From NCBI RefSeq assembly GCF_024707545.1, contig NZ_CP062229.1:1240001-1304000 (forward strand): a stretch of DNA of 64,000 nucleotides. The letters run 5' to 3'. The notes below the pieces were generated by a model. That model was not told where the DNA came from. It made no database searches and worked only from the letters and a program-made list of their open reading frames with translations. The DNA comes from Mesorhizobium onobrychidis (GTDB taxonomy: Bacteria > Pseudomonadota > Alphaproteobacteria > Rhizobiales > Rhizobiaceae). The position numbers and the translations under genes are program-made. Positions 3,626 through 54,248 of the stretch are shown here, piece by piece; positions within the stretch are counted from its first letter, which is position 1, and each line of letters begins with the position of its first letter.

Positions 3626-3973
3626 GGTTGCCTCCTTGGATGTTTGACGATCGCGAGCGGCGCACATCTGCTCCGTCTCGCTGCGAGGAGCGGGCGTTTA
3701 GCGGGGCGCCTGTTTCGGAACGATGTCGCGCGGGGGGCAGCTTTGTTTCGACGTCCTATGAGACACGGCCGTAACGGGATCGCTCAACAATTGTGCCAGC
3801 GCGTCGTGCTGTTTTCTGCTATTCTGACGGCGCCGGGGGAAGGGTCGGGCGCCATGCGGCATCGTCCAGAAACATTGCCGATGCTAATGCGCCGATGCCG
3901 GGGACCCGGTGGCGGGTCGACCGCCTGAATTCAACCCATTCCCATGACGGGAAAAGGCAAATCGGGGGATACT
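3626..3973. other. Divergent intergenic region
   Basis: A 348-bp gap between two divergently transcribed membrane-protein genes. It must hold both promoters. No reading frame with family features, no clear palindrome and no RNA structure were recognised. Confidence 0.5.
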
Positions 3974-49573: not shown

Positions 49574-52500
49574 TTACTTCTTCAGCTGGTCGCGCAACGC
49601 GGCGAGCTTGGCGAAGGGAGAATCCGGGTCGAAGCGCACGGGACGCTCCTCGCGAGGCTTAGGCTGGAACGCGGGCTTTCCACCTGGTGCGCCACCCTTG
49701 CCGTCCTGCCTGCCGCCCTTCCAGTCGGGCCGGCTTTCGCGACGATCGGGACGCTCGCCCTGCGGCTTGCCGTCGCGCCGTTCCCCTGCCTCACCCTGAG
49801 GCTTGGGCTTGAACTTGCTGCGGTCGAAGCGCGGCTTGCCGGCGCCGTCGCCGTCGCGGCGTCCTTGATGGGGGGGCCGGCTGCCTGGAGCGCCGGCCGG
49901 TTGGCCGCCGGTGGCATCTGCCGGTGCGTCGCCACGGCCATCGCGGGCGGCTTGCCCGTTGCGCGGGCGATTGTCCCTGTCACGGGGCCGGCTGTCGTGG
50001 TGGCGGTGGCGCGGGCGCTGGTCGAAGCGGCCCTGCCGCCACAACAGGATGGGTTTTGGTTCTTCGGCCTCTTTCTCGGCCTCTGGAGCAGCCTCGCCGG
50101 TGGCGGCTTCCGTCGCCGCGGCAGGTTCGGTCGACACTGCTTCCGTTGCGGCAGAGGCTTCGAAAGCCGGCTCCGCCGGTGCGACCCCAACCTCGGCGGT
50201 TTCGGTTGCTGCCTCTGGAGCTGCGGCTTCGGCTGCAGGCAGCCCCTCTACCGTGACCTCAGCCGGAGTTTCCAGCTGAGCTTCTGCGACAGGTTCCGCT
50301 TCGGTGGTGGGTTCCGCGGGACCTTCGGCTGCGGCCTCTGCCACGGCAGCCGGCTCCGAACTCTCGGCCGGCGCCTCGGCGGCTGCGTCCGCAACCGCGG
50401 CGTCCGCTGCCTTGGCCTGCTCGGCTCGCGCAGCTTCTTCCGCCGCCTGCTTGGCCGCGGCGGCTTCACGCGCGGCATTGTCCTGTGCCTCGAGCCGTGC
50501 CCTCACCTCGACCGCCGGCTTCGGCTCCGCCCGGTAGCCGAGGCCTTTCAAAATCTCTTCCATGTCGTCGGCCGTGGCGCCGAGGATCGACATCATCGGC
50601 GGCGTCACCATGAAGGACTGACCGTCATAGGCGCCGTCGGGGCGCTGGCCGAGGCCCGGCTTCCAGTTGGTTGCGGGCCGGATCAGGTCGGCCAGCCGTT
50701 CAAGGATGTCGACGCGTACCGCGCGACGGCCGAGATTGCGGTAGCCGGCCAGTTTGTAGAATGCCTTGTCGAAGGTGGGATCGATGACCACTGAGGTGCG
50801 GCCGGAGGCCAGCGCGTGAACCACGTCGCCAAAGCCGGGCTTGTCCTTGCCGTCGTTCCTCAGCGCCCACAACAGCGTCACCAGTCCAGCCGGGGCCGGC
50901 TTGATCAGCGCGGGCACGAAGACGTGGTAGGCGCCGAAGCGCACGCCGAGCCGGCGAAGCGCGGCGCGGCCTTCCTGGTCGAGCGACTTCATCTCCTCGG
51001 CGATGTCGCGGCGGTTGATGAGGCCGAAATGCTCGACGAGTTGGAAGGCGATGCCGCGGCCGATGCCGGTGATCTGCTCGGCGTTTTTGAGGTCGACGAG
51101 CGGCTTCAGCAGGGACTCGATCTGGAAATTGACGAAGCGCTCGGCGCGCGCCGCGACCTTGTCGCGGGCGGGTCCGGTGAGCTGCTCGTCGGCCAGCAGC
51201 ACAAGGCGCGGCTTCAACGGCTCGTCGCCTGCGACCAGCGTGCCGATCGGCGCGCCGATCCAGCGCAGCGTGCCGTCGGAGCCGAGCGCGATGTCACCGT
51301 TGGCCGAGGCGCCGAAGCGTTCGGCCCGCGCCTCGAATTCGGCTGCAAGCGCCTTCTGGGCTGCTGTACGCACCGCCTTGGCATCCTCGCCGCCGGCGCT
51401 CTGGTCGGCGGTGAAGCGGAACCCCTGCAACTCGCCGACATGATGGCCTTCGACGAGGACGGTTCCGGTTGGGCTGATTTCGGCTTCAGGCATGGTATTT
51501 TCTCTAAGGCGCCGCATGAGGACCGAAGTCCTGCGGTCTACGAAGCGTTTCGTCAACCGCTCATGCAGCGCATCCGACAATCTGTCTTCGATTTCGCGCG
51601 TCTTTTCCTGCCAGTGTGCCTGATCGGCCAGCCAGCCGGGCCGGTTGGAAACGAAAGTCCAGGTGCGGATCTGGGCGATCCGGTGCGACAGCGTGTCGAT
51701 GTCGCCCTCGGTGGTGTCGGCACGGCGCACCTGCTCGGCCATGTAATTCTCGTCGACATGGCCATGCCTGGCAAGGTCCGTATAAATCGAGGCGATCAGG
51801 TCGGCATGCTGAGCCGGCGCGATCTTCCTGTAATCGGGAAGGGCGCAGGCCTCCCACAACAGCGCCACGCGCCTGGCGTCGGTGGCAAGCGCCCGGATGT
51901 CCTCGTCGCGGGACAAATGCTCGAGCGCCTGCGCATCCACCGCCGGCAGCGCGCGCGTCAGGCCTTCAACCGGCGCGTTGGTCTCGATCGAGCGCTTCAG
52001 CGCGTCGAGGTTGGCGAAATCGAAACGCGCGGTGCGCCATTGCAGCACCTTCACCGGGTCGAAATCATGCGCTTCGATCTTCTTGACCAATTCCTCGTCC
52101 AGTGGATCGACCTGGCCCGTGACGCCAAAGGTTCCGTCGCGCAAGTGCCGGCCGGCGCGGCCGGCGATCTGGCCGAGCTCGGCCGCTGTCAGATTGCGGT
52201 ACTGGTAGCCGTCGAACTTGCGGTTCTGGGCGAAGGCGACATGATCGAGATCGAGGTTGAGGCCCATGCCGATCGCATCGGTGGCGATCAGATAATCGAC
52301 ATCACCCGACTGGAAAAGCGCCACCTGCGCGTTGCGGGTGCGGGGCGATAGCGCGCCGAGCACGACGGCCGCACCGCCCTGCTGGCGGCGGATCAGTTCG
52401 GCGATCGCATAGACCTCGTCGGCGGAAAAGGCGACGATCGCCGTGCGTCGCGGCAGGCGGGTAAGCTTCTTCGAGCCGGCATAGGCCAGATGCGACAGCC

Positions 52501-52972
52501 GTGGCCGCGTCACCACCGACACGCCCTTCAGCAGACGCTGGAGGATGCCGTGCATGGTAGCTGCGCCGAGCAGCAGTGTCTCCTGGCGGCCGCGTAGATG
52601 CAGGATGCGGTCGGTGAAGATGTGGCCGCGCTCGAGATCGCCGGCTAACTGGACCTCGTCGATGGCGACGAAGGCGGCGTCGGTCTCGCGCGGCATGGCT
52701 TCCACGGTGCAGACCGAATATCTGGCGCCGTCGGGCTGGATCTTCTCCTCGCCGGTGATGAGCGCCACCTTGTGAGCGCCGACCTTCTCGCAGACGCGTG
52801 AATAAACCTCGCGGGCGAGCAGCCTGAGCGGCAGGCCGATAATGCCGCTTTCATGCGCCACCATGCGCTCGATGGCGAGATGGGTCTTACCGGTGTTGGT
52901 CGGCCCGAGCACGGCGGTCACGTCGCGGCCCGACAGGATCAGCGGTTCAGTGTGTTTCGGCTGGATGTTCAT
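49574..52972 (-). CDS. SUV3-like DExH RNA helicase with a long disordered tail
   Basis: A 1132-residue superfamily-2 helicase, relative of the mitochondrial degradosome helicase SUPV3L1. Walker A is GPTNTGKT at about 23-30, the DExH-type motif II is [20 protein letters not shown], and motifs V-VI are [20 protein letters not shown] and [20 protein letters not shown]. The conserved SUV3 core extends to about residue 840. Residues 860-990 are Ala/Glu-rich and residues 1000-1120 are Arg/Gly/Asp/Lys-rich ([37 protein letters not shown]), an RNA-binding type of disorder. It heads the helicase–S4–fdxA–carD group. Confidence 0.92.
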
Positions 52973-53663
52973 CGACCTGGAAATAAGGCTCTCTGCCTCG
53001 CGTTGTCGGGAGCGCGCCCCGTGGCGGCGCGTGTGACAAGCGACACATAGGGATTTCGGGCGCGAAGCGAAAGCGGAATGTTCCGACGGCAGCACGAAGG
53101 CTCTCGTCCGGTGTTGTCAACCGGTCCTGATTTAACAGTTGGAACGAGTCTGGAACGAATCAGCTACGAATCGCTGACTCTTGCTGATTCAGGTTTTGTT
53201 CACGGCTACATCTGGGTTTTTTGCCGGCAAGTCTCACCACATGCTGAATCGCCGAACTGGCCCGATTCATGCAGGGCGGACGTCGTCGTTAACATTTGCC
53301 GATGAACGATCGGCGCATGCCGGCAGGCGTCACCCAACATTATGAAACTATTGATCTTTCCTAACGCGCCTTAACGGTTTGAGGGACGTTTTCGACCTTT
53401 GTCGTTAACCTTCCGGTCAAAGCCGGAACGAAAAGGCGACGAATCAGCGCTGGCGAATATTTCCCGTTTTGTTCACCCCAATATGTTGTGTTGTGAACAG
53501 GTTTTCCACCGAGAATCCACAGGCGGGTAACAGGGTTTTTGCACAGGCCGTGCGGTCGCCGTTAACCTTTGCGTGCCGCTTCGGCACGAATCGGTGTCAC
53601 GTCCGTCGGTCGGCGCAGTCGCGCAAGAGGACCAGACCCGGCCAACAATGCTGAACGGCAGGT
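52973..53663. other. Long AT-richer intergenic region with clustered GANTC, TTAAC and DnaA-box-like motifs
   Basis: 690 bp with no gene. GANTC (CcrM) sites start at 53146, 53157, 53168, 53176, 53186, 53246, 53264, 53441, 53513 and 53588, ten in 447 bp. GTTAAC occurs at 53288, 53404 and 53561, and CTAAC…TTAAC at 53361-53375. TTTTCCACC (53502-53510) and GAATCCACA (53513-53521) each match the DnaA box TTATCCACA at seven of nine positions. TGTTCAC (about 53470) and GTGAACA (about 53492) form an inverted pair. It may be a cell-cycle-regulated promoter or a replication-related site; neither is proven. Confidence 0.6.
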
Positions 53664-54248
53664 TCAAGAAACGTCCTCTCCCACGGCATAGCGCTGCAAA
53701 GTAGGGCCGACGTTCTGAATGATTTCATCGTGGGACAGGGCGACGACGGGCGGAAGCCGCAGCAGGTATCGGCACATCGCCAAACCCAGCAACTGGCTCG
53801 AAACGAGCCCGGCCCGTCGACCCGCGTCGGCGGGATCAGCGACCGCCGCAACGACCGGCCTGACCTGGTTGCCAAATACGTCACGCAGCTTTTCGGCGGC
53901 GAATTCGTTCGACGTCGCCGAACGCAGCAGAATTGCCATGCCAGGACCGCTGGCCGGGCCTTCCCAGATTTCGAGAAAACGCCTGATCAGCGTTTCACCG
54001 ATGGTGTTTCGGTCGATCGCCCGCAGTGCCGGCAATTGCAGGTCGACGACCGCCGCGCTGGCGAACAGGTCGTCCTTGCTGCGGAAATAGCGGATCACCA
54101 TGGCGGGATCGATCGAGGCACGCGCCGCGACGTCGCGGATGGAGGCGCCGTCATAGCCGTGCTCGGCGAACAGGAGCCTCGCGGCCTCGAGGATTTGGGC
54201 GCGCGTGCGGTCCGATTTGCTGGGTTTCTTCGGCTGATTCTCGGTCAT
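53664..54248 (-). CDS. TetR-family transcriptional regulator
   Basis: A 194-residue repressor. The N-terminal helix-turn-helix is RTRAQILEAARLLFAEHGYD, then GASIRDVAARASIDPAMVIR and YFRSKDDLFA. The C-terminal part (QLLGLAMCRYLLRLPPVVAL) fits TetR_C domains of the PA0094-like type. It is divergent from an FAD monooxygenase 83 bp away, and the gap holds a palindrome GTCAACAATCGTTGAC. It very likely represses that gene and itself; the inducer is unknown. Confidence 0.92.
   Translation of the reverse strand: MTENQPKKPSKSDRTRAQILEAARLLFAEHGYDGASIRDVAARASIDPAMVIRYFRSKDDLFASAAVVDLQLPALRAIDRNTIGETLIRRFLEIWEGPASGPGMAILLRSATSNEFAAEKLRDVFGNQVRPVVAAVADPADAGRRAGLVSSQLLGLAMCRYLLRLPPVVALSHDEIIQNVGPTLQRYAVGEDVS

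Follow-up and report, generated by a model that had tools for sequence, protein, structure and literature searches.

A conserved, apparently non-coding array of tandem GANTC-bearing units upstream of a Suv3-like helicase gene in Mesorhizobium onobrychidis and other Alphaproteobacteria

Why should a gap between two genes carry ten GANTC sites within 447 bp, in a genome where this motif is scarce? The scarcity of GANTC in M. onobrychidis is clear: the window (the whole stretch of 64,000 nucleotides from contig NZ_CP062229.1 that was analysed) holds 114 sites, where shuffling gives an expectation of 316, and 40 sampled stretches of the same genome together with the window hold 1342 sites in 859 kb, i.e. 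1.56 per kb, with single stretches ranging from 0.65 to 2.85 per kb. All ten sites named in the original prediction (53146, 53157, 53168, 53176, 53186, 53246, 53264, 53441, 53513 and 53588) were found, and the first five, which occupy 53146-53190, are spaced at 11, 11, 8 and 10 bp, within the 8-11 bp that had been noted. The chance expectation of about 1.7 sites in 447 bp given at that time is too generous, since the sampled density of the genome leads to 0.70; the Poisson probability of ten or more sites is about 4e-9, for a region that was picked by eye. Measured against the sampled stretches the block stands out: no other place has five GANTC within 50 bp or ten within 450 bp, and elsewhere in the sample (858 kb) the best match to the phased pattern retains two of its five positions. 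The remaining description of the gap agrees with our data as well. The block is AT-richer (GC content 0.519 in 53131-53600 versus 0.626 in the whole window), GTTAAC is present three times (53288, 53404 and 53561), accompanied by further TTAAC-type motifs (TTTAAC at 53131, CTTAAC at 53370), and the term "gene-free" is appropriate insofar as the open reading frames of the gap are mechanical and its conservation, judged by eye, does not look like that of coding sequence. The original observation is confirmed, and the case for it is stronger than first claimed. One other site of the same genome, L038:2704 (G000:C1:1752704), carries six GANTC in 80 bp with a spacing of about 15 bp, and is probably a short tandem repeat.

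Lack of conservation, and a commonness of such clusters by chance, had been named beforehand as grounds for abandoning the observation, and both comparisons turned out in its favour. A query spanning 52900-53670 matched 61 of 61 Mesorhizobium genomes, in which the block is conserved, many of the matches stopping at query base 679 (window position 53578), short of the TetR gene. In the family as a whole, blastn matched 125 of 199 genomes, mostly in two patches, 53132-53213 (with the phased cluster) and 53403-53490, which are copies of one unit. A profile of the unit core matched 144 of 199 genomes of the family, 145 of 199 of the order (a set that includes some family members) and 12 of 142 of the class, ten of these twelve lying outside the order. 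These counts are lower bounds because the filters were strict, and it is under these filters that 55 of the 199 family genomes have no match. The register of the phased sites (0/11/22/30/40) is retained with four or five of five GANTC in 91 of 98 extracts from upstream of the helicase gene, 12 of the 98 being second copies of the same place; counts over these extracts are not independent, because the extracts are orthologous. GANTC is generally commoner between genes, as described in PMC8725594, which would favour an accumulation of sites by chance in an AT-richer gap. Nevertheless, the identical register in 91 of 98 extracts and the deep conservation across genomes rule this out, and we regard its probability as negligible.

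The two patches belong to units of a defined architecture. On the forward strand, unit 1 (53132-53292) reaches from the TTAA at 53132 to the TTAA at 53289, and unit 2 (53405-53565) from the TTAA at 53405 to the TTAA at 53562, 157 bp in each case. Among relatives (93 units in 43 loci), each locus has one to five units, delimited by TTAA motifs at a distance of about 156 bp; in 72 of the 77 TTAA pairs with a spacing of 150-163 bp, the motifs are 155-157 bp apart (45 loci; this count takes two genomes twice and includes two pairs that are not units). The 293 TTAA motifs in the 40 sampled stretches from the own genome include no pair at 154-158 bp. The highest number of units seen, five in tandem before one helicase gene, is found in L116 (G106). 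Two 10-base filler stretches are among the rows dropped or doubled in the comparisons as a whole. When 36 first units and 47 later ones were aligned, the motifs were seen to occupy fixed positions relative to TTAA: GGAAC at 9 (in first units and some later ones), GGAACGAATC at 20, GACGAATC at 33, GACTC at 44 and GATTC at 54 (in most first units), TTTGTTC at 63 and CnAnATnTnG at 74, after which first units mostly continue with CACCACATGCTGAATC. Many GANTC and GTTAAC-type motifs are what the block has in common with cell-cycle promoters under the control of CcrM/GcrA and CtrA; tandem units of 156 bp are, to our knowledge, no feature of such promoters. Up to five tandem copies and a fixed rule of 156 bp appear, in our judgement, unusual for a bacterial operator. 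The tandem units go beyond what had been noted for this DNA before, as do the LexA-type half-sites and the pair of NrdR-type boxes described below.

Tandem non-coding units of constant length could also be an array of small RNA genes. This reading is very improbable and was rejected: Rfam yielded no match above the gathering score and only two matches at chance level, a scan for terminators and promoters found neither, and upon folding none of the 7 and none of the 5 pairs predicted had changes on both sides. Given that no pair has changed on both sides, the units look like a DNA element.

To which gene, then, does the array belong? The Suv3-like helicase gene occupies 49574-52972 on the reverse strand and encodes 1132 amino acids from the ATG at 52972; its product contains the Pfam domains DEXQc_Suv3 and Helicase_C, and is nearest by sequence to structures of Suv3/SUPV3L1. 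We assume that SMc03877 (mgpS) of S. meliloti is its ortholog, a gene said to encode an RNA helicase and to be transcribed more strongly in acid (PMC4941405). The helicase gene is present in 98 of the 99 block loci of the family, the exception (L133) being a contig without the helicase on the side of the contig end, and it adjoins the unit in 24 of 24 loci from the order search and in 10 of 11 from the class search; in the eleventh (L265), the neighbouring open reading frame resembles that of L261, an acyl-CoA dehydrogenase by eye. In a 25-mer scan of GTDB, at least 110 of the 116 stretches listed have the start of the helicase gene no more than 1.5 kb away, on the side where it is expected; the other six end 30-644 bases past the unit and are for that reason uninformative on the helicase. 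The far side of the block is more variable and features TetR, phbB or neither in the 99 family loci. An S. meliloti record and a Rhizobium record share the order CarD, ferredoxin, S4 protein, helicase and block, followed by phbB or two small genes. The suggestion that the block is the promoter of the TetR gene finds no support in these data: TetR is present in some genomes only, and phbB or other genes take its place in many relatives. By sequence comparison, the block is a conserved, apparently non-coding array upstream of the Suv3-like helicase gene, within the order and beyond it. Among the functions originally proposed, a control region of the cell-cycle type for the helicase, whose gene is so consistently close by, fits best.

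A few loci depart from this arrangement. In 19 longer loci, some of which were chosen because the match lay off the main one, the helicase gene is present in 13 and absent from six (L240, L242, L244, L246, L247 and L249). L240 and L242, from related genomes, contain convincing units without the helicase; the remaining helicase-less loci are weaker. The two convincing units (L240:3981-4066 and L242:4134-4218) come from large genomes (G444 and G422), and a glutathione-transferase-like open reading frame lies near both, a cupin-like one near one of them (both by eye). Genome G430 (L245) possesses two units 6.7 kb apart, at 3697 and 10354: the first is the helicase unit, and the second lies between a methyltransferase-like and another open reading frame, not directly at the helicase. 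A weak unit-like match in L247 (G341:C1:1140395) is situated near ParA- and RsmG-like open reading frames (by eye), an origin-type neighbourhood. Two database records deserve mention: L405 (JAHREI010000006.1), titled Bacillus subtilis, holds a unit together with an alphaproteobacterial helicase and stems from a mislabelled or contaminated assembly, and L103 (CP090106.1), whose 3.7-Mb S. meliloti record goes by the name pSymB and carries the locus, rpmF and phb genes, is probably the chromosome.

A candidate core promoter of the helicase gene, CTTTCG and CTATGT separated by 17 bp, can be read from the sequence at 53045-53073 on the reverse strand, at least 60 bp from unit 1. A loose form of this pattern was found in 56 of 98 extracts, a count that has no control. 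The candidate is weak because a sigma-70 scan of 52960-53670 found no promoter there. The units could act on the promoter by looping, by activation, or by containing a promoter themselves.

Which proteins might read the units? NrdR is a nucleotide-sensing repressor of ribonucleotide reductase genes, and its operators are found at these genes and also at topA in Pseudomonas; the core consensus of the NrdR box is CnAnATnTnG. Unit 1 contains a box of this type at 53203-53218 (core 53206-53215) with six of six core bases, and, 31 bp on, a partner at 53234-53249 (core 53237-53246) with five of six, overlapped by the GANTC at 53246. Unit 2 contains a single box at 53476-53491 (core 53479-53488) with six of six; the site 31 bp on has three of six. 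With the position left free within 8 offsets, each of the 93 units retains at least five of the six core bases. Of the 43 first units, 40 have a partner (at least four of six) precisely 31 bp on, against 8 for the next best offset; among the 50 later units the number is 11. When loci of the order and the class were scored, two of 35 being left out for a low score, box 1 was kept in 32 of 33 and the partner at 31 bp in 11 of 33. The region upstream of nrdJ in the own genome likewise possesses an NrdR-type pair at 31 bp, and under a loose screen 17 of 30 reductase loci of the same genomes have boxes paired at 30-32 bp. Such pairs are rare in the background: in 858 kb, a five-of-six partner at 31-32 bp on either side accompanies one of 156 perfect cores. 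A gene for NrdR is present in all 16 genomes that were tested for it. In comparison with the literature on NrdR (PMC12051234, PMC5343134, PMC4409342), which describes the box as a 16-bp palindrome (PMC4409342) and pairs of boxes with spacers of 15-16 bp (PMC12051234), the palindrome and its 31-bp partner match NrdR box pairs in sequence, and NrdR appears to be the best supported among the candidate regulators. The block resembles NrdR operators in its palindromic core with a second, weaker box 31 bp on in first units, as at the own nrdJ; it differs from them in that it precedes a helicase gene, is embedded in arrays of GANTC and GAAC, and has mostly single-boxed later units.

A second set of motifs resembles the LexA (SOS) operators of Alphaproteobacteria, which have GAAC/GTTC half-sites 7 bases apart; the Caulobacter motif is given as GTTCN7GTTC (PMC12700426). 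Unit 1 contains a direct GAAC-N7-GAAC of LexA type at 53142-53156 on the forward strand, with a GANTC in its spacer, and inverted half-sites ATTC-N7-GTTC at 53187-53201 on the reverse strand, i.e. reading GAACAAA... on the helicase strand. The half-sites of unit 2 (53426-53474, forward strand) are GAAC at 53426-53429 and GTTC at 53471-53474, with the GANTC at 53441. Of the 43 first units, 42 have both direct GAAC and all 43 the inverted GTTC; of the 50 later units, 11 have the former and 47 the latter. The inverted pair is complete, with its outer half, in 2 of 43 first and 5 of 50 later units. The spacer of the inverted site begins with AAA in 71 of 90 units, as at recA, upstream of which GAACAAAnnnnGTAC is present in 19 of 22 loci of the same genomes, the own genome included. 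The strict form GAACN7GAAC is found upstream of recA in 8 of 22 genomes, and the own genome is not among these. Since the inverted pairs are mostly incomplete and the strict pair occurs at recA in 8 of 22 genomes, LexA is best treated as a lead, a regulator for which the sequences provide moderate support. Unlike LexA operators, the block has several half-sites in both orientations, a GANTC inside a spacer, and an inverted site usually with three of four bases in one half. The GAACAAAnnnnGTAC motif itself lies 115-160 bases upstream of the recA matches (L303-L324), and is probably a rhizobial variant of the SOS box. The RpoE2 site, with the consensus GGAAC-N16-CGTT, was also considered and rejected, as by eye there is no CGTT at the right distance.

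The GANTC sites themselves, which follow a lattice of close to 11 bp in the units, are found inside the spacer of the direct half-sites, just after the half-sites, and over the partner NrdR-type box. In this last position GANTC keeps its frame, while its middle base is A in 36, T in 3 and C in 1 of the 43 first units (none in 3). That the middle base varies while GANTC stays suggests that methylation of both operators matters, though the overlapping motifs may account for some of the conservation of GANTC. It is also conceivable that the units are sites of one as yet unnamed DNA-binding protein, which would recognise GAAC/GTTC half-sites set 11 bp apart on a lattice, together with phased GANTC, the likenesses to NrdR and LexA being coincidental. 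The motifs do share one common register, GAAC (22) and CGAC (33) mirror nTTC (56) and GTTC (67) around one centre in the unit alignments, and the half-sites at recA have an A-rich spacer that the direct half-sites of the units lack. Nevertheless, the exact partner spacing of 31 bp fits NrdR and is common to nrdJ of the own genome, and we consider a single reader rather unlikely.

DnaA-type boxes, which had also been predicted for the gap, are present in the tail of unit 2 (53502-53545, forward strand: 53502-53510, 53513-53521 and 53537-53545), and are conserved in Mesorhizobium: a TTWTNCACA-type box with eight or nine of nine bases occurs in 30 of 30 scorable unit-2 tails, where 2.15 were expected, mostly at offsets 6, 17 and 28. 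Seven of the 37 Mesorhizobium loci were dropped from this test, as unit 2 was not recognised by the pattern. By eye, some loci of other clades have DnaA-type boxes; the unit-2 tail of Mesorhizobium is where they were tested and found, and this confinement leaves the idea of a pure DnaA-titration site unsupported. TTTGTTCACC was likewise considered as a DnaA box, an appealing reading as TTTGTTCACA is conserved upstream of hemE in Mesorhizobium; for the unit core it was abandoned, given that the steady part is GTTC, which mirrors GAAC, and that the AC behind it varies. An involvement of DnaA in the block may be suggested at the level of the motif. The same applies to CtrA, to which only the GTTAAC ends of the units might point: a full CtrA site is TTAA-N7-TTAA or TTAACCAT, which is absent from the block in the window, TTAACCAT being present in some relatives only.

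The units and their fixed register, the linkage to the helicase gene, the match to an NrdR box pair and the GAAC half-sites in LexA-type spacing can all be read from the aligned sequences. On this basis we propose, with a probability of roughly 0.6, that the block, with its tandem units of about 156 bp, serves the Suv3-like helicase gene as a composite operator array, which would tie expression of the helicase to the state of replication, dNTP supply and DNA damage. NrdR would bind the box pair, LexA or a similar repressor the GAAC/GTTC half-sites, and CcrM would methylate the GANTC sites that lie inside both operators. Hemimethylation after passage of the fork could then alter binding to the operators, either via GcrA or directly; CtrA may bind the GTTAAC ends and, in Mesorhizobium, DnaA the tail of unit 2. 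As an outcome, expression of the helicase would be coupled to replication, dNTP supply and DNA damage.

A further-reaching version of this proposal, which we find doubtful, regards the array as an ancient alphaproteobacterial integrator of replication state, in which hemimethylation, dNTP level and damage are read on one face of the DNA, and the target, the bacterial relative of mitochondrial Suv3, would be a replication or repair helicase and not a housekeeping RNA helicase. The phased GANTC inside NrdR- and LexA-type operators would then possibly be read by a SeqA-like protein that recognises hemimethylated GANTC. The block would provide a deeply conserved site for testing where DNA methylation, dNTP sensing and damage response meet, and would link a little-studied bacterial Suv3-like helicase to DNA replication. 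No paper found in the open-licence literature appears, from its title or the beginning of its abstract, to describe the block; the word helicase is absent from the main texts of four papers on CcrM or methylomes (PMC5172544, PMC8725594, PMC11514494, PMC11711589), and from the texts of two on NrdR (PMC12051234, PMC4409342).

Could the block instead be connected with the initiation of replication? The gene hemE marks oriC in Sinorhizobium and Caulobacter. The block shares a GANTC cluster and boxes of the TTGTTCAC/TTATCCACA type with the alphaproteobacterial oriC at hemE, and differs from it in its location elsewhere, its tie to the helicase gene and its GTTAAC-bounded units. The chromosome contig of M. 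onobrychidis has hemE and the parS-like sites at 826-835 kb, about 0.46 Mb from the block at 1293 kb, and it was on this position that an origin of replication was rejected. The suggestion of a replication-linked element is right in spirit, but oriC is probably elsewhere, and the block is probably not oriC. The GC skew, proposed as a means of placing the origin, was sampled and is noisy, and neither helps nor hurts. Were the block a chromosomal origin, or else a second element that is origin-like or titrates DnaA, this would be in line with the GANTC cluster, GTTAAC and the DnaA-type boxes in the unit-2 tails of Mesorhizobium, with the one sampled sign change of GC skew that falls near the block, and with the presence of the block and the nearest hemE on one contig, 92-851 kb apart, in 31 of 32 genomes. 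However, hemE with its parS-like sites and conserved DnaA-type boxes is situated elsewhere, and the block tracks the helicase gene and not a constant distance to hemE, which makes such an element unlikely. Two genomes possess two hemE-type matches: G093, in which both are full-length (G093:C1:697291 and 2011931), and G009. A smaller conserved GANTC cluster with a spacing of about 8-10 bp is present approximately 50-80 bases upstream of hemE itself (L167-L179).
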